In this document: positions 2,957-24,791 of the stretch, in pieces
How the letters are laid out: each line of letters starts with the position of its first letter
How positions within the stretch are numbered: the stretch's first letter is position 1
Origin: Pseudodesulfovibrio sp. 5S69
GTDB lineage: Bacteria; Desulfobacterota; Desulfovibrionia; Desulfovibrionales; Desulfovibrionaceae
Direction: 5' to 3'
DNA: 64,000 nt
Assembly: GCF_037094465.1 (NCBI RefSeq)
Contig: NZ_CP146609.1
Span: forward strand, 2,971,501-3,035,500
The notes under the pieces: model-generated
What the model saw: the letters and a program-made list of their open reading frames with translations, nothing else
The model's database searches: none
Told to the model about the DNA's origin: nothing
Position numbers and translations under genes: made by a program

Positions 2957-4089
2957 ATGCCTTCTCCCCTGGTTTCGAATAGGGGCTCCCAGTCCTTGAA
3001 GACCGGCTGGTAGCCCCTGCTGCGCAGGGCGGCGCAGACCTCGTCCACGCTGCGCGCGTCGCTGATGTCGAACTGGCCCGTGTTCTCCTCGCCGCTGGTC
3101 TCGTCCGCGTGTCCGCCCACGGCCGTGGACACGCCCGCGGACATGCGGGTTACGCCCAGCGGCAGGATGTTCTCGCGGAACTCGGCGTTCTCGCGGGTGG
3201 AGATGGTGATGCCCACCCTGGGCAGAAACAGCCGCAGGGCCATGAGGAACTGGACCATGTCCCGGTCCGAGACGATGGTGGCGGGCTCCCAGTCGCCCAC
3301 GTGCGGGCGCATGCGCGGCAGGGACACGGCGATGTCCGTCTCCGGATAGTTGTGCATCAGATAGGCCGCGTGCAGGCCGGTCAGCAGCGCGTCGCGCCGC
3401 CAGTCGCCCAGGCCGAGCAGCGCGCCGATGTTGACCACGCGCATGCCCGCCCGGCAGGCCCGCTCCGGGGCGTCCAGGCGGAACCGGTAGTCCCGCTTGG
3501 GGCCTTTGGGGTGAAGCACGGCATAGAGTTTCTCGTCGTAGGTCTCCTGGAACATGGTCATGCCGTCCACGCCCGCCCGGACCAGCCGGGCGTACTCCTC
3601 CTCGGTCATGGCAAAGACCTCGATGGACACGGACGGGAAGTGCCTGTTCAGGACCCTGGTGCAGGCCTCCAGGTAGTCCACCCCGGTCTTGGCCGGGGCA
3701 TCGCCGGTGAGGATGAGCAGGTTCCTGAGTCCAGTGGCCGCGATGGCCGCGCCCTCCGCGTCCACCTCCTCCAGGCTGAGCATGGAGCGGTGAATCCTGT
3801 TGGTGCAGTTGAAACCGCAATAGACGCAGTGGTTGGTGCAGATGTTGGCCAGGTAGAGCGGCGTGAACAGGCTGACGGTCCGCCCGAAGTGCTGGACGGT
3901 CAGTCGGCTGGCCTTCCGCGCCATCTCCTCCAGCAGGGAGGAGGCGGCCGGGCTCATCAGGGCCATGAAGTCCTCCACCGTGGCCGTGGTCCGGTTGATG
4001 GCCCGGCGCACGTCCTGTTCGGTGAAGTCGTCGAAACGCGCGTCGGGCAGTCCCTCGGCGTACGTCTCCATGAGCGGGTAAAAACTCAT
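2953..4089 (-). CDS. thiH: 2-iminoacetate synthase ThiH (tyrosine lyase)
   Basis: A radical-SAM enzyme that cleaves tyrosine to dehydroglycine (2-iminoacetate) for thiazole formation, with p-cresol as by-product. The cluster motif CTNHCVYC gives C84, C88 and C91. The length of 378 residues is normal for the family. Use of ThiH instead of the oxygen-dependent glycine oxidase ThiO fits an anaerobic lifestyle. Start and stop overlap the neighbouring thiG and thiF by four bases each. Confidence 0.96.
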
Positions 4090-4865
4090 GCCGCGCCTCC
4101 CAGGAAGCCGGTCAGGGGCGAAGAGGCGTCGGCCAGGACGCGCTTGGCACCGGGGCCGGAGAGGTAGGCCTCGCGTCCGGCGCGGACCGCGCGGCCGAAG
4201 GCCCGGGCCATCATGACCGGGTCGCTGGCCGTGGCGATGGCCGTGTTGACCAGGACCGCGTCAGCGCCCATCTCCATGGCCTCGCAGGCCTCGGACGGGC
4301 GGCCGATGCCCGCGTCGACCACGATGGGCAGATCGATCTCCTCAATGAGGATACGGACCATCTCGCGGGTCTTGAGCCCCCGGTTGGTGCCGATGGGCGC
4401 GCCCAGCGGCATGACCGCGGCCGCGCCCGCGTCGACCAGCGCCTTGGCCACGTACAGGTCGGCGTTGACGTACGGCAGGACCGTGAAGCCCTCGTTGGCC
4501 AGAATCTCCGTGGCCCTGACCGTCTCATAACCGTCGGGAAGCAGGTAGCGGTTGTCCGAGATGACCTCGATCTTGATCCAGTCGCCGCAGCCCATTGCCC
4601 GGGCCAGGCGAGCGATGCGTACGGCCTCGTCCGCGTCGCGGGCGCCCGAGGTGTTGGGCAGCAGTTGCATGTGTTCGGGGATGAAATCCATGACGTTGCC
4701 GGTGGCGGACTCCAGGTCCACCCGGCGCAGGGCCACGGTGATGACCTCGGAACCCGAGGCCTCGCAGACCTCCGGGATGACGCCGTCGTCGCCGTATTTT
4801 CCGGTACCGGTGAACAGACGGCTGGTCAGGGTCCGGCCGCCGATCTCGAAAGTATCCTTGCTCAT
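4086..4865 (-). CDS. thiG: Thiazole synthase ThiG
   Basis: Condenses deoxyxylulose 5-phosphate, dehydroglycine and ThiS-thiocarboxylate sulfur into the thiazole phosphate moiety. The 259-residue TIM barrel begins with the typical [19 protein letters not shown] segment and has the [11 protein letters not shown] and [10 protein letters not shown] phosphate-site strands. The ATG at 4865 is preceded by TAGGAG, and the TAG of thiS sits inside that ribosome binding site, so the two genes are nearly contiguous. Confidence 0.97.
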
Positions 4866-13332: not shown

Positions 13333-14238
13333 CTAATTCTTCTTGAGGACGGTCGTGACCGTCTCCGGATTCTTCTTTTCAAGCCTGCACCCTTCGGGGA
13401 GGGTCACGTCGTAATTCAACTCGAACTTACCCTCGGCCACCTTGCCGCCGAAGACCACCGAAGCCAGGATGGACTTGCGGTACTCGTCGTCGTGGAACAG
13501 GAAGACCGGGCCCTCGATGAGCAGGCGGACATAGCGCTGGTGGACCGAGACCTTGAACCCTTCGGGGTCCTGGTACTCGATGGGCACCTTGACCCATATC
13601 TCGCGGGTCTTGGGTGCGAAAAACGCCTCCACGTTGACCTGGCCGGGCGAGGCCTCGATCTCGTCGGGAACCTCCAGGGCCACATCCTCGGCCCAGGACC
13701 GGGGCACGTCTTCGGGGAAGTCGCCCTTCAGGACCACGCGGGTCTTGGAAATCTTTCTGAGCAGGGTCTCGGGCCCGCGGATGGTGACCACGTCGGGCGA
13801 GGCCGTGACCTCCTGCAGCTTGTAGTCGGGATTGAGGTTGCCCGCCCAGGCGGCCTCCACCGTGATCTTCTTGGAGATACGCCGGTCCACCGTGAGCCGG
13901 AGCCGGTTGGGCCGGACCTCGATGATCTCGTAGGTGGAGGACAGCGGAATCTTGGCCGGATCGATGTCCACCACCTGCTCGCCGATCTTGAGGTTGCTGA
14001 CGTTGATCGGGTAGACCAGGTTCTGGGAAGCAAGGTTGCCGACCAGCCCCTTGGGGCCGCGCAGCCGCACCTGGATCTTGTCCACCAGCCCGTCCTCGAT
14101 GATCAGCCCCTCGGGCGGATTGGTCATGACCACGGGCATGTCCACCCAGGTCTCCACCACTTCCCGGCCGGTAACCAGGAACCAGGTGAACACGGCCAGG
14201 GCTATGGACAGCAGTACGGTTTGCCAGTTTCGCAACAT
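13333..14238 (-). CDS. cdaR: YbbR-domain regulator CdaR
   Basis: A 301-residue membrane-anchored protein: a short cytoplasmic start, one transmembrane helix (about residues 7-22, [15 protein letters not shown]) and several YbbR-type beta repeats facing the periplasm. In Firmicutes CdaR regulates the adjacent diadenylate cyclase. It begins two bases after cdaA ends, and the C-terminal repeat ends in a charged [14 protein letters not shown] tail. The role is inferred from domain type and gene order. Confidence 0.88.
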
Positions 14239-14239
14239 A

Positions 14240-14989
14240 TCAGCGCCCCAAAGCGTTCTTGAGCACGCGCCGCAGGCGCGTCTCGTCCAGGCTGGTGGTC
14301 AGGCGGCCGTTCATGGCCACGGAAACTTCGCCCCGCTCCTCGGAGACCACGACGGTGATGGCGTCCGACCCCTCGGAGATGCCGAGCGCCGCGCGGTGCC
14401 GGGTACCGTACATGGGCTGGCCCCGGAGCTTGTTGGACAGGGGCAGGATGCAGGCTGCGGCCACGATGCGGTCGCGGCGGACGATGATCGCCCCGTCGTG
14501 CAGGGGGGTGTCCGCGAAGAAGATGGTCTCGATGAGTTCCTTGTTGACCTTGGCGTCCAGTTCGATGCCGCGCTCGATGATGTCGCCCAGCGGCATGTTC
14601 TTCTCGATGACGATGAGCGCCCCTGTGGAGGTGTGCGACATGGTCATGACCGCCTGGGTCAGTTGGTCCAGGGTGTCGTCGCGCACGTCGGACTTGGTCC
14701 AGAACCGCCGGGTGCCCACCGAGGCGAGCGCCTTGCGGATGTCGGTCTTGAACAGGATGACCACCACCAGAAACAGGGAGGTCAGGAACTCGCCGAGCAG
14801 TGCGTTCAGGGTGTAGAGGTTGAACTTCTCGGCCACGTAGTAGACGACCAGCACGACCACCAGGCCGTAGAGCACGGCGGCGGCCCGGGTCCCCCGGACG
14901 AGCACGATGATGTTGTAGTAGATGAAGGCCACCAGCCCGATGTCGAGCAGGACCCTCCAGGTGACTTGAATACCGAAAAGCTCAAACAT
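14240..14989 (-). CDS. cdaA: Diadenylate cyclase CdaA
   Basis: Synthesises cyclic di-AMP from two ATP. The 249-residue protein has three N-terminal transmembrane helices (about residues 10-30, 36-55 and 63-80) and a DisA_N catalytic domain with DGA at 165-167 and GTRHR at 195-199, the two motifs needed for activity. It stands in front of cdaR and glmM. c-di-AMP is less often discussed in Gram-negative bacteria, so the intact active site here is informative. The phosphodiesterase that would degrade it is not in the window. Confidence 0.95.
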   Translation of the reverse strand: MFELFGIQVTWRVLLDIGLVAFIYYNIIVLVRGTRAAAVLYGLVVVLVVYYVAEKFNLYTLNALLGEFLTSLFLVVVILFKTDIRKALASVGTRRFWTKSDVRDDTLDQLTQAVMTMSHTSTGALIVIEKNMPLGDIIERGIELDAKVNKELIETIFFADTPLHDGAIIVRRDRIVAAACILPLSNKLRGQPMYGTRHRAALGISEGSDAITVVVSEERGEVSVAMNGRLTTSLDETRLRRVLKNALGR

Positions 14990-14998
14990 GCGCTTTAA

Positions 14999-15838
14999 CT
15001 ACGCCAATTCACGAGCTATGGTCAATGTCTGTCGCGTTAATTGCACTTCGTGGACGCGATGGATGGGCACGCCCTTGGCCGCGAGCACGGCCGTGGCCGC
15101 CTGTGTGGCGTTCTGACGCTGCCCCGGCTCGGCCCCGACCAGCCCCTGCCAGACGGATTTGTTGGACAGTCCCATGTAGACCGGCAGGCCGAATTCGCTG
15201 AACCGCCCGATCTCCCGCAGGATGGCCAGGTTGTGCTCCAGCTTCTTGCCGAACCCGATGCCGGGGTCCAGAACGACCCGGTCCAGGGGCAGCCCGGCCC
15301 GTTCCAGGACCCCCAGCCGCTCCTCGAAAAAAGCCATGATCTCGCCGACCACGTCGTCGTATGCCGGCTCGTCCTGCATGTCCTCGGGCCGGCCCAGGGA
15401 GTGCATGAGCACGTAGCCGGGCTTGTACTCGACGAGCACATCCAGCAATTCCGGCTCGAAACGGAACCCGGAGACGTCGTTGATGATGGCGGCCCCGGCC
15501 TCCAGGCAGCGGGCGGCCACCTTGGCCTTGTAGGTGTCCACGGAGATGACCGCGCAGGTCCGGGCCGCAACGAGCCCCTCGACCACGGGCAGGACGCGGG
15601 CCAGCTCCTCGGCCTCGCCCACCGGGTCGCTGTACGGCCGGGTGGACTCGCCGCCGATGTCCAGGATGTGCGCGCCTTGCCGGGCGAGTTCCAGAGCGTG
15701 CGCCAGGCCCGACGCCGTGTCGGGATGAGCCCCGCCGTCGTAAAAGGAGTCCGGGGTCACGTTGACGATCCCGGCAATGAAGAAGGGGGCAGGTCCCAAG
15801 ACCTTGCCCCCCTTAACTGTCCATGTGGTATCGTTCAT
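14999..15838 (-). CDS. folP: Dihydropteroate synthase FolP
   Basis: Joins p-aminobenzoate to the pterin pyrophosphate in folate synthesis and is the sulfonamide target. The 279-residue TIM barrel has both family signatures: GIVNVTPDSFYDGG near the N terminus and ILDIGGESTRPYSDP. INDVSGF and VLDPGIGFGK also mark the pterin site. The ATG at 15838 has a poor ribosome binding site. A GTG at 15871 with GAGGA upstream would overlap ftsH by 20 bases and is a real alternative. The ftsH-folP pair is conserved in many bacteria. Confidence 0.94.
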   Translation of the reverse strand: MNDTTWTVKGGKVLGPAPFFIAGIVNVTPDSFYDGGAHPDTASGLAHALELARQGAHILDIGGESTRPYSDPVGEAEELARVLPVVEGLVAARTCAVISVDTYKAKVAARCLEAGAAIINDVSGFRFEPELLDVLVEYKPGYVLMHSLGRPEDMQDEPAYDDVVGEIMAFFEERLGVLERAGLPLDRVVLDPGIGFGKKLEHNLAILREIGRFSEFGLPVYMGLSNKSVWQGLVGAEPGQRQNATQAATAVLAAKGVPIHRVHEVQLTRQTLTIARELA

Positions 15839-15851
15839 GATTGTCTGCCGA

Positions 15852-17897
15852 TTATTGCAGCTTGTTCTCACCGTCGTCCTCGTCGGTCCCGCCCCCCTCG
15901 CCGTCGTCGAGGATGAAGTCGTCGCCGGAACCGCCGGACGCCTTCTCGGAATCGCCGGATTTCTCGCTCACGGGTTCATAGCCGGGGCCCGAATCCTTGG
16001 CGGCCCGGCCGTCGGCGGTGTAGCCGGACGGGGTGCCGGAGCCGCCTGCGCCGGACGAGCCGGAACCGGAGTTGTGGTTCGGCTCCACGGGGGGCAGTTC
16101 CTTGCCCTCCATGAGCAGGTCGATATCGTGGCCGGTGATGGTCTCGCGCTCCAGCAGGGCCATGGCGATGGCGTCCAGAAGTTCGCGGTTCTCCTTGATC
16201 AGGTTGGTGGCCCGCTCGTGGGCCTCCTCCACGAACCGGCGGACCTCGGAGTCGATCAGCTTGGCCGTCTCCTCACCGTAGTTCTTGTTGTGGATGAGCT
16301 CGCGGCCCAGGAAGACCTGCTCTTGGTTGTCGCCGAAGCTCATGGGCCCGAGCTTGTCGGACATGCCCCACATGCAGACCATGTTGTGGGCGGTCTTGGT
16401 GGCCCGTTCGATATCGTTGCTGGCGCCGGTGGTCAACTGGCCCAGGACGACCTCCTCGGCCACGCGGCCGCCCATGAGCACGGCCATGTTGTTGCGCAGG
16501 AATTCCTTGGAATAGTTGTGGCGGTCCTCGCCGGGCAGTTGCATGGTCACGCCGAGCGCCTGCCCGCGGGGGATGATGGAGACCTTGTGCACCGGGTCGG
16601 TGCCGGGCAGGAACTTGGCCACCAGGGCGTGTCCGCCCTCGTGATAGGCCGTGGTCTTCTTGTCCTCTTCGGAGAGGATCATGGACCGCCGTTCGCGGCC
16701 GCCCATCATGACCTTGTCCTTGGCCTCTTCGAAATCGTTCATGTCCACCCAGTCCTTGCCGAGCTTGGCCGCGCCCAGCGCCGCCTCGTTGACAAGATTT
16801 TCCAGGTCCGCGCCCGAGAAGCCGGGGGTGCCCTTGGCGATGATTTCCAGGTTCACTTCCGGGGACAACGGGGTCTTGCGGCTGTGCACCTTGAGGATGC
16901 GCTCGCGGCCGCGCAGGTCCGGATTGGGCACGACCACCTGGCGGTCGAAGCGGCCGGGACGGAGCAGGGCCGGGTCGAGCACGTCCGGACGGTTGGTGGC
17001 GGCCACCAGGATGACGCCCTCATTGGACTCGAAGCCGTCCATCTCCACGAGCAGTTGGTTCAGGGTCTGCTCGCGCTCGTCGTGGCCGCCGCCCAGGCCC
17101 GCGCCACGCTGGCGGCCCACGGCGTCGATCTCATCGATGAAGATCAGGCACGGGGCGTTCTTCTTGCCTTGGGCAAAGAGGTCGCGCACGCGGGACGCGC
17201 CCACGCCCACGAACATCTCCACGAAGTCCGAACCGGAGATGGAGAAAAACGGGACATTGGCCTCGCCGGCCACGGCACGGGCCAGCAGGGTCTTACCGGT
17301 ACCGGGGCTGCCCACCAGGAGCACACCCTTGGGGATGCGGCCGCCCAACCGGGTGAACTTGCGCGGCTCGCGCAGGAAGTCGACCACCTCGGAAAGCTCT
17401 TCCTTGGCCTCGTCCACACCGGCCACGTCGTCAAAGGTGACCTTGGCGGTCTCCTCGTTGATCAGCCGGGCCTTGGACCGGCCGAAGCTCATGGCCCCGC
17501 GTCCGCCGCTGCCGCCGCCCTGCATTTGGCGCATGAAGAATATCCAGACGCCGATGAGCAGGATCATGGGGAACCAGGACAGGAGCAGGGTCAGGTACCA
17601 CGGCGACTCGTCCGGCGGTTCGGCCTTGACCTCGACGCCCTTGGAAATGAGGGTCTCGATCATCTTCGGATCGTCCGGGGCGTAGGTCTGAAACGACTCG
17701 CCGGAGCTCTTCACGCCGGTGATCTTCGGGCCCTGGATCTTGACCGAAGCCACGGCGCCGCTGTCCACCATGGACAGGAACTCGCTGTAGGACGGCGTAT
17801 CCTTGGGTACCGGAGGCTGGTTGAAAAGGTTGAAGAGGACAACCATCAGGATGAAGATGATCGCCCAGATGACAAGATTTTTCATATGATTGTTCAA
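15852..17897 (-). CDS. ftsH: ATP-dependent membrane metalloprotease FtsH
   Basis: A hexameric inner-membrane AAA+ protease for quality control and regulated turnover. Two transmembrane helices flank a periplasmic domain (about residues 7-25 and 103-122). They are followed by Walker A GSPGTGKT, Walker [12 protein letters not shown], the second region of homology, and the zinc site HEGGH. A long Gly/Ser/Glu-rich C-terminal tail of about 80 residues follows. The conserved start would be MKNLVIWA at 17885, but it has no ribosome binding site. A TTG four codons upstream has GGAGG eight bases away, so I chose it. Confidence 0.94.
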
Positions 17898-18039
17898 AGG
17901 AGAGTCCTCCGTAAGGGTCAATTGAACGGCCCGGGGGGCCCGCTTGACGTCGCGTTGCCGCGATTTCAGGAATCTAGAGTAATGCCGTTGTTTGAAAAAT
18001 CAAGTGAATCGGCAAAAAAACTCGGATTACAGACACTCC

Positions 18040-20686: not shown

Positions 20687-21586
20687 TTATTTAAAGATCC
20701 ACTCAAGGATCGCCTTTTGCGCGTGGAGCCGGTTCTCGGCCTGGTCCCAGACGATGGAGGCCGGGGACTCGAAGACGGACTCGGAGACCTCCTCGCCGCG
20801 GTGGGCGGGCAGGCAGTGCATGAAGCTCGCGTTCGGGGCGGCCAAGCCCATGAGGGACTCATCCACCATGTACCCGGCAAAGGCGGCCTCGCGCTTTTTC
20901 TGCTCCTCTTCCTGGCCCATGGACGCCCACACGTCGGTGTTGACGTAGTCCGCCCCGGCCACGGCGGCCTTGGGGTCTTCGGTCAGGGTGATCTTGGCGC
21001 CGAGGCTGACGGCCTTGTCCAGGATGGCCTGGTCGGGCTTGTACCCCTCGGGGCATGCCAGACGCAGCTCGTAGCCGAAAACGGCCGAGCCGTTGATGAA
21101 GGAGTGGGCCATGTTGTTGCCGTCGCCGACCCAGGCCACCTTGACCTTGTCCAGGTCCGGGGTGCGTTCAAACATGGTCAGCACGTCGGCCATGACCTGG
21201 CACGGGTGGTATTCGTCGGTCAGGGCGTTGACCACCGGGATGTCGCCGTAATCGACCAGGGTTTCCAGCTTCTCCTGGCCGAAGGTTCGCACGACGAGCC
21301 CATCGGCGTATCGGGAGAGGACACGGGCGGTATCCTTGAGCGGTTCGCTGCGCCCCAACTGGGAGTCGCGGGCGGCGATGAACACCGGGTCCCCGCCCAA
21401 CTGGCGCACGCCCACCTCGAAGGACACGCGGGTCCGGGTGGACGCTTTTTCGAAAATCAGCAGCACGGTCTTGCCGTCCAGGAGATCGGTGCGGACCTTG
21501 GCGTCCTTCATCTCCTTGGCGCGCAGGATAACCTGCTTCACTTCATCCCTGGGGATGTCCAGAATGGTCAGAAAATGTTTGGGCAT
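20687..21586 (-). CDS. argF: Ornithine carbamoyltransferase ArgF
   Basis: Makes citrulline from ornithine and carbamoyl phosphate. The 299-residue protein has the carbamoyl-phosphate loop STRTRVSFE (S49-E57) and the ornithine-side [12 protein letters not shown] motif. First gene of the arg operon. GGAG lies about ten bases upstream. The 129 bases before it contain an AT-rich stretch (21645-21675) suited to a promoter, but I cannot call a clear ArgR box. Confidence 0.96.
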
Positions 21587-21715: not shown

Positions 21716-23281
21716 CTACTGGTGCCTGCCGAGCCAGTCGTGGAACTGCTTGAGCGTCAGGCACCGGCTGGCCGGCCCGCTGCGCACGTAGAACTCCTCG
21801 CCCTTGGCCGCGTCCAGGATGGCCGGGACCGGGGCCGGAATGCAGTGCACGCGTAGGACCCGCTTTTCGCCCACCTCGATGACCCGGCTGTCGATGTAGC
21901 GCGAAAACTCGGTGCCGATGTGTCGGTCGACCAGGTTGTTGAAGTGCAGGAGCGCCTTGTCATCGCTGTCGAAGTTGTCTTCGTCGAAACCGGTCACGGT
22001 GCCGTCGTCGGCCACGCCGACGAGCAGGGTCCCGCCCTCGGAATTGAGAAACGCGGACACGGTCTTCAGGCAGGCGTGCTCGATCTCCTTGCCGTTCTTG
22101 CCGGACTTGATATTGAAGCGCAGGGTCTGCTTGAACTCCAGCCTGCCGCCCTCCCCGGTCTGGATGAGGTCGATGACCTCGCCCGCGGTGGTCGCGGCCT
22201 CGCGGCGCATGCCCAGGGATTCGATGCGACCCCGGCTGCGGTGCAGGATGAAGAGCACGCCGAAGGCCATGAGGATGAGGACCACGGCGCCGGCCTGGAG
22301 GAAGGAGTCGCTGGTCAGGGTGGACAGGACGTTCTGGCGCGGCACGGCCACGCCCAGGGAAAGCGTGTCGCCGAAGATGGACAGGGGCATGGCCCAGGTC
22401 CACCAAGTCTCGCCGCCCGAGGTGAAGGAAAACGGCTTGTCCGGGGTTCCGTCCTCCAGGGCGGCCAGCCCGGACACGGCCTTGCGGACCACCGGGTCGG
22501 GCAACTTGTCCGGGGTCAGGGCCTGTCCGGCCAGGTCCGGGGACACGTCGGTGCCCAGCCCGCTCACGGGCATGGCCCGGCCGTCGCCCCAGTAGAGGAA
22601 AATCCGCTCCGCCCCGCCACGTTCCGCCCCGCTGAGCTGGGACAGGATGGCCTCGGCCGGAAAGGCGAAGGAGAGCATCAGCCGCTGGCCCGAGCCCGAC
22701 TCCACCAGGGAGGAGGCCGTGATCCAGGCCACGTTGACGTGGTGGAAGCGGTTGGCGCTGCGCCAGTTGACCTGGCCCGGTTCCAGGTGGCTGAACTCGT
22801 CGGACAGGACGGTGTCCACCTGGGCCAGGTCCATCTTCCAGCCGAGGAAGGGCTTGTCGCCCGCCTTGCCGTCCTTGAGCAGGGTCCAGGACAGAACGGT
22901 GTGCAGGTCGTCGGGCACGGCCTCGACCATGCCGCCGAAGCGCCGGGTGAGCAGGTAGCGCAGCCCCTGCCCGTCGCTGAGCATGATCGCTTCCAGGTTC
23001 TGGTGGTCCTTGAGCACCGCGCCGAACTCCTTGCGCAGGGCGGCGGGCTTGAGACTCTTGAGCAGCCCCTGGCCCATCTCCTGGTTGGAGTTGCGCACCG
23101 CGTTGAGGAGCACGGTCACCGCGCCGGACAAGCCGCGCGCCGAGTTCTCCACGGCCACCATGGCCGCGTCGTGACGGATCTCGCGCACCCCCATGTAGGC
23201 CAGCGAGCCCACCGCCGCCACCGCGAAGATGACGCCGTAAAAAAGCAAATTGTACAGCTGCTTGCCTCGGATGCCGCGCAT
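21716..23281 (-). CDS. Membrane-anchored Cache-like sensor fused to a Schlafen AlbA_2-type domain
   Basis: A 521-residue protein with an unusual layout. A transmembrane helix at about 11-30 is followed by a roughly 295-residue extracytoplasmic region. That region resembles a Cache/dCache sensor (VENSARGLSGAVTVLLNAV, then strand-rich segments). A second helix follows at about 329-347. From residue 377 to the end there is a Schlafen AlbA_2 domain: EGGRLEFKQTLR, then KTVSAFLNSEGGTLLVGVADDG, then EEFYVRSG. AlbA_2 domains are linked to nucleic-acid binding or NTPase activity and usually sit in soluble proteins. Here one is tied to an outside sensor in place of a kinase or cyclase. The gene follows ybeY by two bases, so it is probably co-expressed with phoH-ybeY. 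Its function is unknown. Confidence 0.8.
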   Translation of the reverse strand: MRGIRGKQLYNLLFYGVIFAVAAVGSLAYMGVREIRHDAAMVAVENSARGLSGAVTVLLNAVRNSNQEMGQGLLKSLKPAALRKEFGAVLKDHQNLEAIMLSDGQGLRYLLTRRFGGMVEAVPDDLHTVLSWTLLKDGKAGDKPFLGWKMDLAQVDTVLSDEFSHLEPGQVNWRSANRFHHVNVAWITASSLVESGSGQRLMLSFAFPAEAILSQLSGAERGGAERIFLYWGDGRAMPVSGLGTDVSPDLAGQALTPDKLPDPVVRKAVSGLAALEDGTPDKPFSFTSGGETWWTWAMPLSIFGDTLSLGVAVPRQNVLSTLTSDSFLQAGAVVLILMAFGVLFILHRSRGRIESLGMRREAATTAGEVIDLIQTGEGGRLEFKQTLRFNIKSGKNGKEIEHACLKTVSAFLNSEGGTLLVGVADDGTVTGFDEDNFDSDDKALLHFNNLVDRHIGTEFSRYIDSRVIEVGEKRVLRVHCIPAPVPAILDAAKGEEFYVRSGPASRCLTLKQFHDWLGRHQ

Positions 23282-23283
23282 AT

Positions 23284-23775
23284 CTACCCCGCCGCCTCCG
23301 CGTATTCGTCCAGGACCCGGTCCACGGCCGCGTCCGTCATGTCGAACATGACTTCGCCGTGGTCGAACCCGGCCAGGTGCAGCAGCCCGTGGGCCAACAG
23401 CCGGGCCAGGTGCTCCAGCGGGGCCTGGCCGTACAGGTCGGTCTCCCGCGCCAGGGCGTCCACGGACAGGGCCAGCTCGCCGAGAAAGGTTTGGTCGCCG
23501 GGTTCGCCGACCTCTCCGCTCCCGTCCTTGCCGGGGTCCTCCGAGTCATGGGCCGGGAAGCTGAGGATGTTGGTCGGGCCGGTGCAGCCCAGAAATTCGC
23601 GGTTGAGCCGGGCGATCTCGCGGTCATCCACCAACTGGAGCTCGAAGGTGCGGCCGGTGAGCCCCAAGGCGTCCAGCAGGATCGCGGCCAACGCCCCGAG
23701 TTCGGACCGGGACAAGGGGAACCTCGGGTCGAGCCGGGTCTCCCTGACGATCTCCACCGGGCCGCTCACGCTCAT
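23284..23775 (-). CDS. ybeY: Endoribonuclease YbeY (rRNA maturation factor)
   Basis: A zinc endoribonuclease needed for 16S rRNA 3'-end maturation and ribosome quality control. The 163-residue protein has the metal motif HGLLHLAGFDH (H129, H133, H139). It is longer than usual because of an Asp/Gly-rich insertion near residues 76-95. The start overlaps the phoH stop as ATGA, and the phoH-ybeY order is common. Confidence 0.95.
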   Translation of the reverse strand: MSVSGPVEIVRETRLDPRFPLSRSELGALAAILLDALGLTGRTFELQLVDDREIARLNREFLGCTGPTNILSFPAHDSEDPGKDGSGEVGEPGDQTFLGELALSVDALARETDLYGQAPLEHLARLLAHGLLHLAGFDHGEVMFDMTDAAVDRVLDEYAEAAG

Positions 23776-24791
23776 TGTTCGTTGCCCTCATGGGCGTCGT
23801 AGGCCCGGACGATACGCCCCACCAGCGGGTGGCGGATAACGTCCTTCTCGTCGAAGGTGATGAACTTCACGCCCTTGACCCCTTCGAGGATGCGCCTCGC
23901 GTGGAGCAGGCCGGACTTGGCGTGGACCGGCAGGTCGATCTGGGTGACGTCGCCGGTGACCACGGCTTTGGATCCGAAGCCGAGCCGGGTCAGGAACATC
24001 TTCATCTGCTCGGGCGTGGTGTTCTGGGCCTCGTCCAGGATGATGAAGGCGTCGTTCAGGGTGCGCCCGCGCATGAAGGCCAGCGGGGCCACCTCGATGA
24101 CCCCGGACTCCTGGTAATCCTGGACCTTGGCGAAATCGAGCATGTCGTGCAGGGCGTCGTAGAGCGGCCGCAGGTACGGGTTGATCTTCTCGGCCAGGTC
24201 GCCGGGCAGGAAGCCGAGCTTCTCGCCCGCCTCCACCGCCGGACGGGTCAGGACGATGCGCTTGACCTCGCGGCGGGTCAGCGCGCCCACGGCCATGGCC
24301 ACGGCCAGGTAGGTCTTGCCCGTGCCCGCCGGGCCGATGCCGAAGGTCATGTCCGACTCGCGGATGGCGTCGAGATATTCCCGCTGGTTCAGGGACTTGG
24401 GCGACACGGTCCGCTTGGCCGAGGTGGCGTAGACGTCGCCCTTGAAGACCTCGCACACGTCGGCCGAGGGCTGGCGCTCGAGGATACGGCAGGCGAAGTC
24501 CACGTCCTGCGGGTACACGGACTTGCCGCGCCGGATCATGGCGTAGAGCTGGGTCAGGACCTGGGCCGCCAGATCGCCCTTCTGCTCCTCCCCCTCCGGG
24601 GAGTGGATGACCAGGGTGTTGCCCCGGCTCTCGATACGCACGCCGATGCGTTCGCCCAGGAGTTTCAGATGCTGGCCGTGGGGACCGAAAAGTTGGCTGG
24701 CCATATGGCCGTCGTCGAATTCAAGCTTGGTGACGGGCAGAACGATTTCCTCCGGAATTACTCCTTGGCGCGCAAGAACATCCACTTGCAT
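23772..24791 (-). CDS. PhoH-family ATPase
   Basis: A P-loop ATPase of the PhoH/YbeZ type, usually paired with YbeY in RNA metabolism. Walker A is GPAGTGKTYLA, Walker B is AFIILDEAQN, and a KH-like N-terminal part precedes them. As drawn (339 residues) the start overlaps the upstream permease gene by 34 bases. The only good ribosome binding site, GGAGGA, lies inside that stretch, seven bases before a CTG codon at the IVLPVT segment, so the true start may be there and about 17 codons shorter. Confidence 0.9.
   Translation of the reverse strand: MQVDVLARQGVIPEEIVLPVTKLEFDDGHMASQLFGPHGQHLKLLGERIGVRIESRGNTLVIHSPEGEEQKGDLAAQVLTQLYAMIRRGKSVYPQDVDFACRILERQPSADVCEVFKGDVYATSAKRTVSPKSLNQREYLDAIRESDMTFGIGPAGTGKTYLAVAMAVGALTRREVKRIVLTRPAVEAGEKLGFLPGDLAEKINPYLRPLYDALHDMLDFAKVQDYQESGVIEVAPLAFMRGRTLNDAFIILDEAQNTTPEQMKMFLTRLGFGSKAVVTGDVTQIDLPVHAKSGLLHARRILEGVKGVKFITFDEKDVIRHPLVGRIVRAYDAHEGNEQ

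Follow-up and report, generated by a model that had tools for sequence, protein, structure and literature searches.

The 64,000-nucleotide (nt) stretch of the Pseudodesulfovibrio sp. 5S69 genome analyzed here, which we call the window, contains a gene at 21716..23281 that encodes a membrane receptor of 521 amino acids (aa), built from a first transmembrane helix (TM1), a double-Cache (dCache) ectodomain, a second transmembrane helix (TM2), a short linker, and a SLFN_AlbA_2 domain. The receptor gene, its parts, and the neighboring phoH-like, ybeY, and argF genes all lie on the minus strand. The architecture is well supported, and the cytoplasmic output is, judging from conserved sequence motifs, likely a Schlafen-type ribonuclease (RNase).

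A double-Cache sensor joined to a single Schlafen lobe

Hydropathy analysis of the receptor identified two hydrophobic stretches (approximately residues 9-31 and 326-348) that enclose about 294 residues, and the predicted model places helices at the same positions: TM1 (residues 9-31; 23189..23257), which opens a long helix covering model residues 7-70, and TM2 (residues 326-348; 22238..22306). The extracytoplasmic residues between them (32-325; 22307..23188) take a dCache fold in the predicted model, the arrangement of a double-Cache receptor. Positive residues read just after TM2 (LHRSRGRIESLGMRR) are consistent with a cytoplasmic C-terminus, and we take it as such. What follows is a linker (residues 349-376; 22154..22237), bounded by Pfam and the model, in which a Pfam scan found no HAMP match, and then the SLFN_AlbA_2 domain (PF04326; residues 377-506; 21764..22153), the single domain that Pfam recognizes in the protein (E=1.5e-19; 71.1 bits versus a cut-off of 25.3). 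The fold extends to residue 521, and the predicted structure of residues 349-521, with a predicted local distance difference test score of 93.1, matched AlbA_2 and Schlafen C-lobe structures in a fold search. NCBIfam is without a model for the protein, and the genome, which consists of one 4.16-Mb contig, has no other AlbA_2 match at E<=0.001.

An initial annotation of this locus, made from the sequence alone, had proposed an extracytoplasmic, Cache-like sensor between two transmembrane helices and an AlbA_2 domain as its cytoplasmic output. Both proposals hold: the predicted fold is a double Cache, and AlbA_2 is the only cytoplasmic module detected. In the profile search that the annotation suggested, the receptor itself has no Cache match in Pfam at E<=1, such a match being usual among double-Cache receptors but not a requirement; a profile built with its relatives matches Cache domains of methyl-accepting chemotaxis proteins (MCPs) with E values down to 2.5e-10, and PF02743 or PF22673 is present in 23 of 120 among the relatives listed (manual count). 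Pfam revealed no second AlbA_2 stretch in the 521 aa, the remainder being helix, dCache, and helix; with one lobe only, the receptor is not classed as a Schlafen protein proper, which carries an N-lobe and a C-lobe in one chain. Most of the named close homologues come from Pseudodesulfovibrio. One 558-aa homologue, 70% identical (P0019), is filed under a eukaryote transcript collection and is probably bacterial contamination of a transcriptome.

Conservation of the putative catalytic site

The ExxxxExK motif that forms the Schlafen RNase core occupies residues 377-384 (22130..22153) of the receptor, and a third acidic residue, D425 (22007..22009), sits in a GVxD loop as it does in Schlafens, where it aligns with D248 of rat SLFN13. 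The receptor carries this combination of ExxxxExK and a third acidic residue expected of a Schlafen-type RNase. In an alignment of the window protein with 105 relatives (A4), from which fragments such as P0079-P0081 were left out, E377, E382, and K384 are invariant (106/106), D425 occurs in all rows but one (105/106), and R500 (21782..21784), within FYVRSG, is again present in all 106. A stricter motif pattern was matched by 329 of 335 retrieved homologues (P0002-P0336). Three of the six misses have ExxxxExK with a different next residue; the other three show none, two of them lacking a precomputed AlbA_2 domain and one being a chimeric-looking fragment (P0079, P0080, and P0081).

The functional meaning of these residues comes from animal Schlafens. 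Rat SLFN13 is described as having a pseudo-dimeric N-domain with the catalytic residues E205, E210, and D248 (PMC5862951). For SLFN14, whose E206, E211, and K213 we equate by alignment with E377, E382, and K384, the report describes each core residue as essential, conservative changes included, with E211Q abolishing activity and only a limited role for D248/D249; R133A is dead and R133K active, from which its authors infer a positive charge coordinating E211 (PMC12215978).

As a control we assembled 69 same-phylum AlbA_2 loci (29 from a search and 40 hand-picked from its further list), of which 62 domains were recovered, three of them receptors, and seven without an AlbA_2 match at E<=0.01 were not counted. 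Position 382 is E in 50 of the 62, D in 3, and Q in 9, and position 500 covaries with it, being R in 53/53 domains with an acidic residue at 382 and K in 9/9 with Q. This joint change is what would be expected if R500 contacts E382 as SLFN14 R133 contacts E211. The catalytic columns of L165 read MNK in the first survey alignment and EEK in the better alignment of the control set. The nine Q/K domains (L150, L154, L156, L157, L159, L162, L168, L172, and L185) are candidates for natural nuclease-dead, binding-only AlbA_2 domains.

These data bear directly on a rival explanation, in which the receptor is a membrane-bound nucleic-acid-binding regulator without catalysis and its ligand alters AlbA_2 binding to DNA (or RNA) to control transcription. 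ToxR and CadC are models for such a regulator. AlbA_2 has been termed DNA-binding for prokaryotic Argonaute (pAgo) proteins (PMC6299218) and for SAMD9 (PMC5445408), the SAMD9 AlbA_2 structure 7ksp contains DNA, and several databases name homologues AlbA family DNA-binding or helix-turn-helix proteins. The motif is, however, kept in every row of A4, while in a related same-phylum group Q replaces the second Glu (9 of 62), a change described as lethal to SLFN14 activity (PMC12215978), and Pfam found no separate helix-turn-helix in the receptor. We consider catalysis-free regulation unlikely. The initial annotation had left the choice between RNA and DNA open; a nucleic acid is the probable target, and the conserved ExxxxExK points to an RNase over DNA binding alone.

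Distribution and selection

A full-length receptor is encoded in 30 of 36 same-genus genomes, that of strain 5S69 included. In G007 a contig ends within a further copy, next to ybeY (L035), presence could not be decided in the 81% complete G013, and four genomes lack the gene, with ybeY followed by argF in G016 and G030 and by another gene and then argF in G005 and G017. Full-length matches were absent from 10 same-family genomes of other genera (among those listed) and from 24 same-order genomes of other families. When the receptor profile was searched over 297 genomes of the phylum, near full-length receptors turned up in nine others and pieces in a further three. A scan of species-representative genomes returned at least 557 relatives, not all of which need be receptors. 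We retained the best 80 of these, ranked by match to a full-length dCache-AlbA_2 query; by their record titles they include Desulfobacterales, Desulfocapsa, Geobacteraceae, Gammaproteobacteria, Krumholzibacteriia, Kiritimatiellales, Sedimentisphaerales, Acidobacteriota, and Aminicenantes. In 79 of the best 80 a hydrophobic stretch lies on either side of the ectodomain and AlbA_2 is C-terminal (L114 is cut at a contig end), a uniformity that partly reflects selection by the full-length query. The initial annotation had looked to Desulfovibrionales for this architecture, which is no peculiarity of that order and instead defines a widespread family beyond it.

The two halves of the receptor evolve at different rates. 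Over five ungapped pairs the ratio of nonsynonymous to synonymous substitution rates (dN/dS) was 0.05-0.20 for AlbA_2 and 0.11-0.65 for the ectodomain, and identity to the window protein had medians of 70.8% and 49.3%, respectively, over 27 comparisons in the genus. Conservation of the output alongside a faster-changing sensor would fit receptors whose ligands change.

AlbA_2 as an exchangeable output module

The 297-genome search also matched other proteins, most of them longer, by their ectodomain part only. Among five that we checked with Pfam, two carry an adenylate/guanylate cyclase (L139 and L140) and two a SpoIIE phosphatase (L138 and L141), while the cyclase match of the fifth is sub-threshold (L137; E=0.00093). 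Conversely, the same AlbA_2 subfamily is joined to other inputs, with REC in 115 and a cyclic-nucleotide (cNMP)-binding domain in 5 of 120 among the matches listed (manual count); the profile was seeded with such proteins and gave 6749 matches in all, the remainder of which may include REC-only matches. An ectodomain found on other outputs and an AlbA_2 domain found on other inputs identify AlbA_2 as an output module. Many REC-AlbA_2 and a few cNMP-AlbA_2 proteins (P0104, P0109, and P0221-P0336) carry ExxxxExK too, and some of these are labeled OmpR-family DNA-binding regulators in their sources.

Two further groupings deserve mention. Frames of 273-339 aa with AlbA_2 domains that resemble the receptor type (133-143 bits) occur at L170 (=L133), L183 (=L134), L191 (=L135), L184, and L177; L170 has one membrane stretch by hydropathy and L133 and L134 start hydrophobic, and this group is possibly a second membrane-tethered AlbA_2 family without Cache. 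A hydrophobic stretch was absent from 24 of 28 AlbA_2 open reading frames (ORFs) sampled in the phylum (28 of 29 loci recovered). A GmrSD-type restriction domain is fused to the same subfamily in P0107, P0118, and P0220 (precomputed PF03235) and, below the cut-off, in L130, and some subfamily members may thus act in defense.

Gene neighborhood

Immediately upstream of the receptor gene lies ybeY (23284..23775; Pfam E=1.3e-21), which encodes the endoribonuclease YbeY and ends 2 nt before it, and a phoH-like ATPase gene (23772..24791; Pfam E=7.1e-98) overlaps ybeY by 4 nt. The first downstream gene, after a 129-nt gap, is argF (20687..21586), with Pfam ornithine/aspartate carbamoyltransferase domains. 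The order phoH, ybeY, receptor, argF holds in 30/30 genus loci, with a median gap from ybeY to the receptor of 2 nt (range -14 to 63) over 25 measured loci; the motif did not pick up L009 and L030, a gap to ybeY was not obtained at 3 of 28 loci, and start codons were picked by length, which shifts some gaps by a few nt. Outside the genus, neither phoH nor ybeY was found at any of 80 loci (median 9.4 kb around the receptor) or at any of 12 further phylum loci (flanks of about 1.5 kb or less). Co-transcription of the receptor with ybeY is therefore likely within the genus, yet it is not a property of the family. The initial annotation had read this linkage as a functional clue; the linkage itself stands in the genus, but we reject a general functional tie to phoH-ybeY, given its count of 0 of 80 and 0 of 12 in the flanks outside the genus.

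No conserved partner gene emerged outside the genus either, as recurring neighbors sort by lineage (76 loci; L056, L061, L085, and L104 were left out of this analysis, having no motif match among the ORFs of a simple caller). A Pfam scan of ten neighboring proteins at five of these loci identified a Na+/H+ antiporter and a xylose-isomerase-like protein (L084), PLD-like and TatD proteins (L053), a Na+/H+ exchanger with TrkA_N and a Usp protein (L054), two squalene/phytoene synthases (L073), and, in a member of the Krumholzibacteriia (L047), iPGM and a 124-aa protein encoded directly after the receptor gene with a sub-threshold cNMP-binding match (E=0.00066). A homologue of this last protein occupies the same spot in four other loci. 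In five genus loci (L008, L015, L019, L021, and L022) about 1.3 kb separates the receptor from argF; in L008, the one checked, the intervening gene (3137-4300) encodes a Peripla_BP_6 periplasmic binding protein by Pfam, which is possibly a ligand-delivery partner. The other four probably carry the same gene, and similar-looking ORFs occur in L032 and L034, from genomes without the receptor. By eye, the ORF list of the window at 13333-17921, downstream of the arg genes, looks like cdaR, cdaA (c-di-AMP cyclase), folP, and ftsH.

The neighborhood weighs on two other explanations. According to one, the receptor is a phage-defense effector, an envelope infection sensor that releases a suicidal tRNase; prokaryotic Schlafen RNases have been reported in defense loci and tied to tRNA cleavage (PMC12839542), and the GmrSD fusions described above share this AlbA_2. 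The gene is, however, syntenic throughout the genus, and its neighbors look like housekeeping genes (arg genes and ybeY here; Na+/H+ antiporter, TatD, squalene/phytoene synthases, and similar genes at the five outside loci checked). PADLOC returned only a weak pAgo cross-match (E=0.0059; residues 399-455), and we reject membership in the known anti-phage defense systems. The Cache domain, moreover, is a small-molecule sensor fold, and we regard a defense role as quite improbable. We give equally little credence to the receptor being a genus-specific accessory of YbeY/PhoH-dependent rRNA maturation that adjusts RNA processing with its operon partners, as the operon-like packing and constant gene order would suggest, given that phoH-ybeY was not found in the flanks of the 80 and 12 outside loci and is retained without the receptor in four of the 36 genus genomes.

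A proposed mechanism

The architecture, the dCache and AlbA_2 folds, the conservation of ExxxxExK and the arginine, the purifying selection, and the exchange of inputs and outputs were computed, and from them we lean, if only slightly, toward a one-component membrane receptor that gates an AlbA_2 endoribonuclease. The double-Cache domain would bind a small molecule in the periplasm; the two helices and the 28-residue linker would then carry the signal straight into AlbA_2, which would act as a single-lobe Schlafen-type, metal-dependent endoribonuclease. Because an SLFN RNase grips its RNA between two related lobes of the same chain, the working unit is, by analogy, probably a dimer in which each of two receptor subunits contributes one lobe. 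This clamp would open or close on ligand binding and gate the cleavage of tRNA or another structured RNA, so that translation is tuned. If R500 is equivalent to SLFN14 R133, which by its number would belong to the N-lobe and act on the C-lobe site, then in a one-lobed protein the partner subunit could give this contact; such a partner-subunit arginine and the SLFN13 pseudo-dimer together suggest an active site assembled in a signal-dependent way.

Several observations weigh against receptor-gated RNA cleavage. ExxxxExK is widespread in AlbA_2 domains generally, as the E382 count in the control set indicates, and is thus not receptor-specific. The Q/K group may be one clade and hence a single event, and its Lys would not in itself mean a dead site, since SLFN14 R133K is active. 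The equivalence of R500 and R133 rests on a weak alignment (the SLFN11 N-lobe segment scores 2.3 bits), and a PDB alignment of just the C-terminal 69 residues, made for this equivalence, gave chance matches only. Human Schlafens hold two lobes per chain and the receptor only one. In the fold search, SLFN5 structures whose titles call them DNA/RNA-binding reach the scores of SLFN11 and SLFN13, the SAMD9 domain of 7ksp was solved together with DNA, and for 3lmm no reported activity was found in the searches made.

More tentative, with a prospect that falls a little short of even, is the broader proposition of a receptor-RNase signaling class, in which a small molecule outside the cell directly gates an inner-membrane Schlafen-type RNase and the same module on REC and cNMP-binding proteins makes up a widespread output that controls translation by RNA cutting rather than through transcription or a second messenger. 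Such a direct link from receptor to RNase, if true, would be an output acting on RNA without a relay, beyond the kinase, chemotaxis, cyclase, phosphatase, and DNA-binding outputs, and would point to a bacterial signaling setting for the kind of RNase found in the animal Schlafen and SAMD9 immunity proteins. As the family is broad, proof of RNase activity would re-annotate many proteins now labeled DNA-binding or hypothetical.

Comparison with known systems

The initial annotation had suggested that the architecture would be a new kind of transduction. In the literature searched, no paper came up that describes a Schlafen output on a membrane receptor or a response regulator, a coverage that excludes most subscription journals and bioRxiv and in which absence is not proof of novelty; nor did the same literature yield a paper on the REC-AlbA_2 or cNMP-AlbA_2 proteins. 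The receptor combines known modules anew and would represent a new receptor output class if the RNase step were shown. A parallel in logic is IRE1, which has a lumenal sensor, one transmembrane helix, and a cytosolic RNase activated by dimerization. IRE1 is eukaryotic and its domains are unrelated to those of the receptor, so that the shared path from transmembrane sensor to RNase is an analogy only.

The closest parallels in domain are other AlbA_2 proteins. The endoribonucleases SLFN13, SLFN14, and SLFN11 (Schlafen core, PF04326) have in common with the receptor the AlbA_2 fold, ExxxxExK, and the third acidic residue in the GVxD loop, but the human Schlafens are not membrane receptors and carry two lobes per chain, whereas the receptor bears one lobe on a transmembrane Cache sensor. 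SAMD9 and SAMD9L, whose AlbA_2 is a tRNase effector domain, resemble the receptor in that one AlbA_2 lobe serves a larger protein as its effector, and 7ksp and 9o0d are among its closest folds; the Schlafen-like acidic site of SAMD9L is reported to be required for translation repression (PMC11221667). The SAMD9 family surrounds this lobe with Sir2-like, STAND-like NTPase, TPR, and OB-fold domains (PMC5445408), and the receptor has a membrane Cache sensor instead. The soluble bacterial AlbA_2 proteins (the DIP2311/3lmm type and the Schlafen-kinase-winged helix-turn-helix proteins near BREX) are, unlike the receptor, without a membrane sensor, and in one related group Gln takes the place of the second Glu. 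The vicinity of BREX loci is a reported location of Schlafen RNases (PMC12839542), and a HEPN survey describes Schlafen fusions in conflict systems (PMC3710099).

The input, finally, places the receptor among the dCache chemoreceptors, cyclases, and phosphatases. A published census of Cache proteins, which sampled only those with known outputs, gives the categories MCP, HK, c-di-GMP, AC/GC, SP, STK, TF, and ion-channel, with no Schlafen among those described (PMC4822843). The receptor shares the helix-dCache-helix input with these proteins, and ectodomains matching its own are found on Guanylate_cyc and SpoIIE domains; its output, in their place, is AlbA_2.
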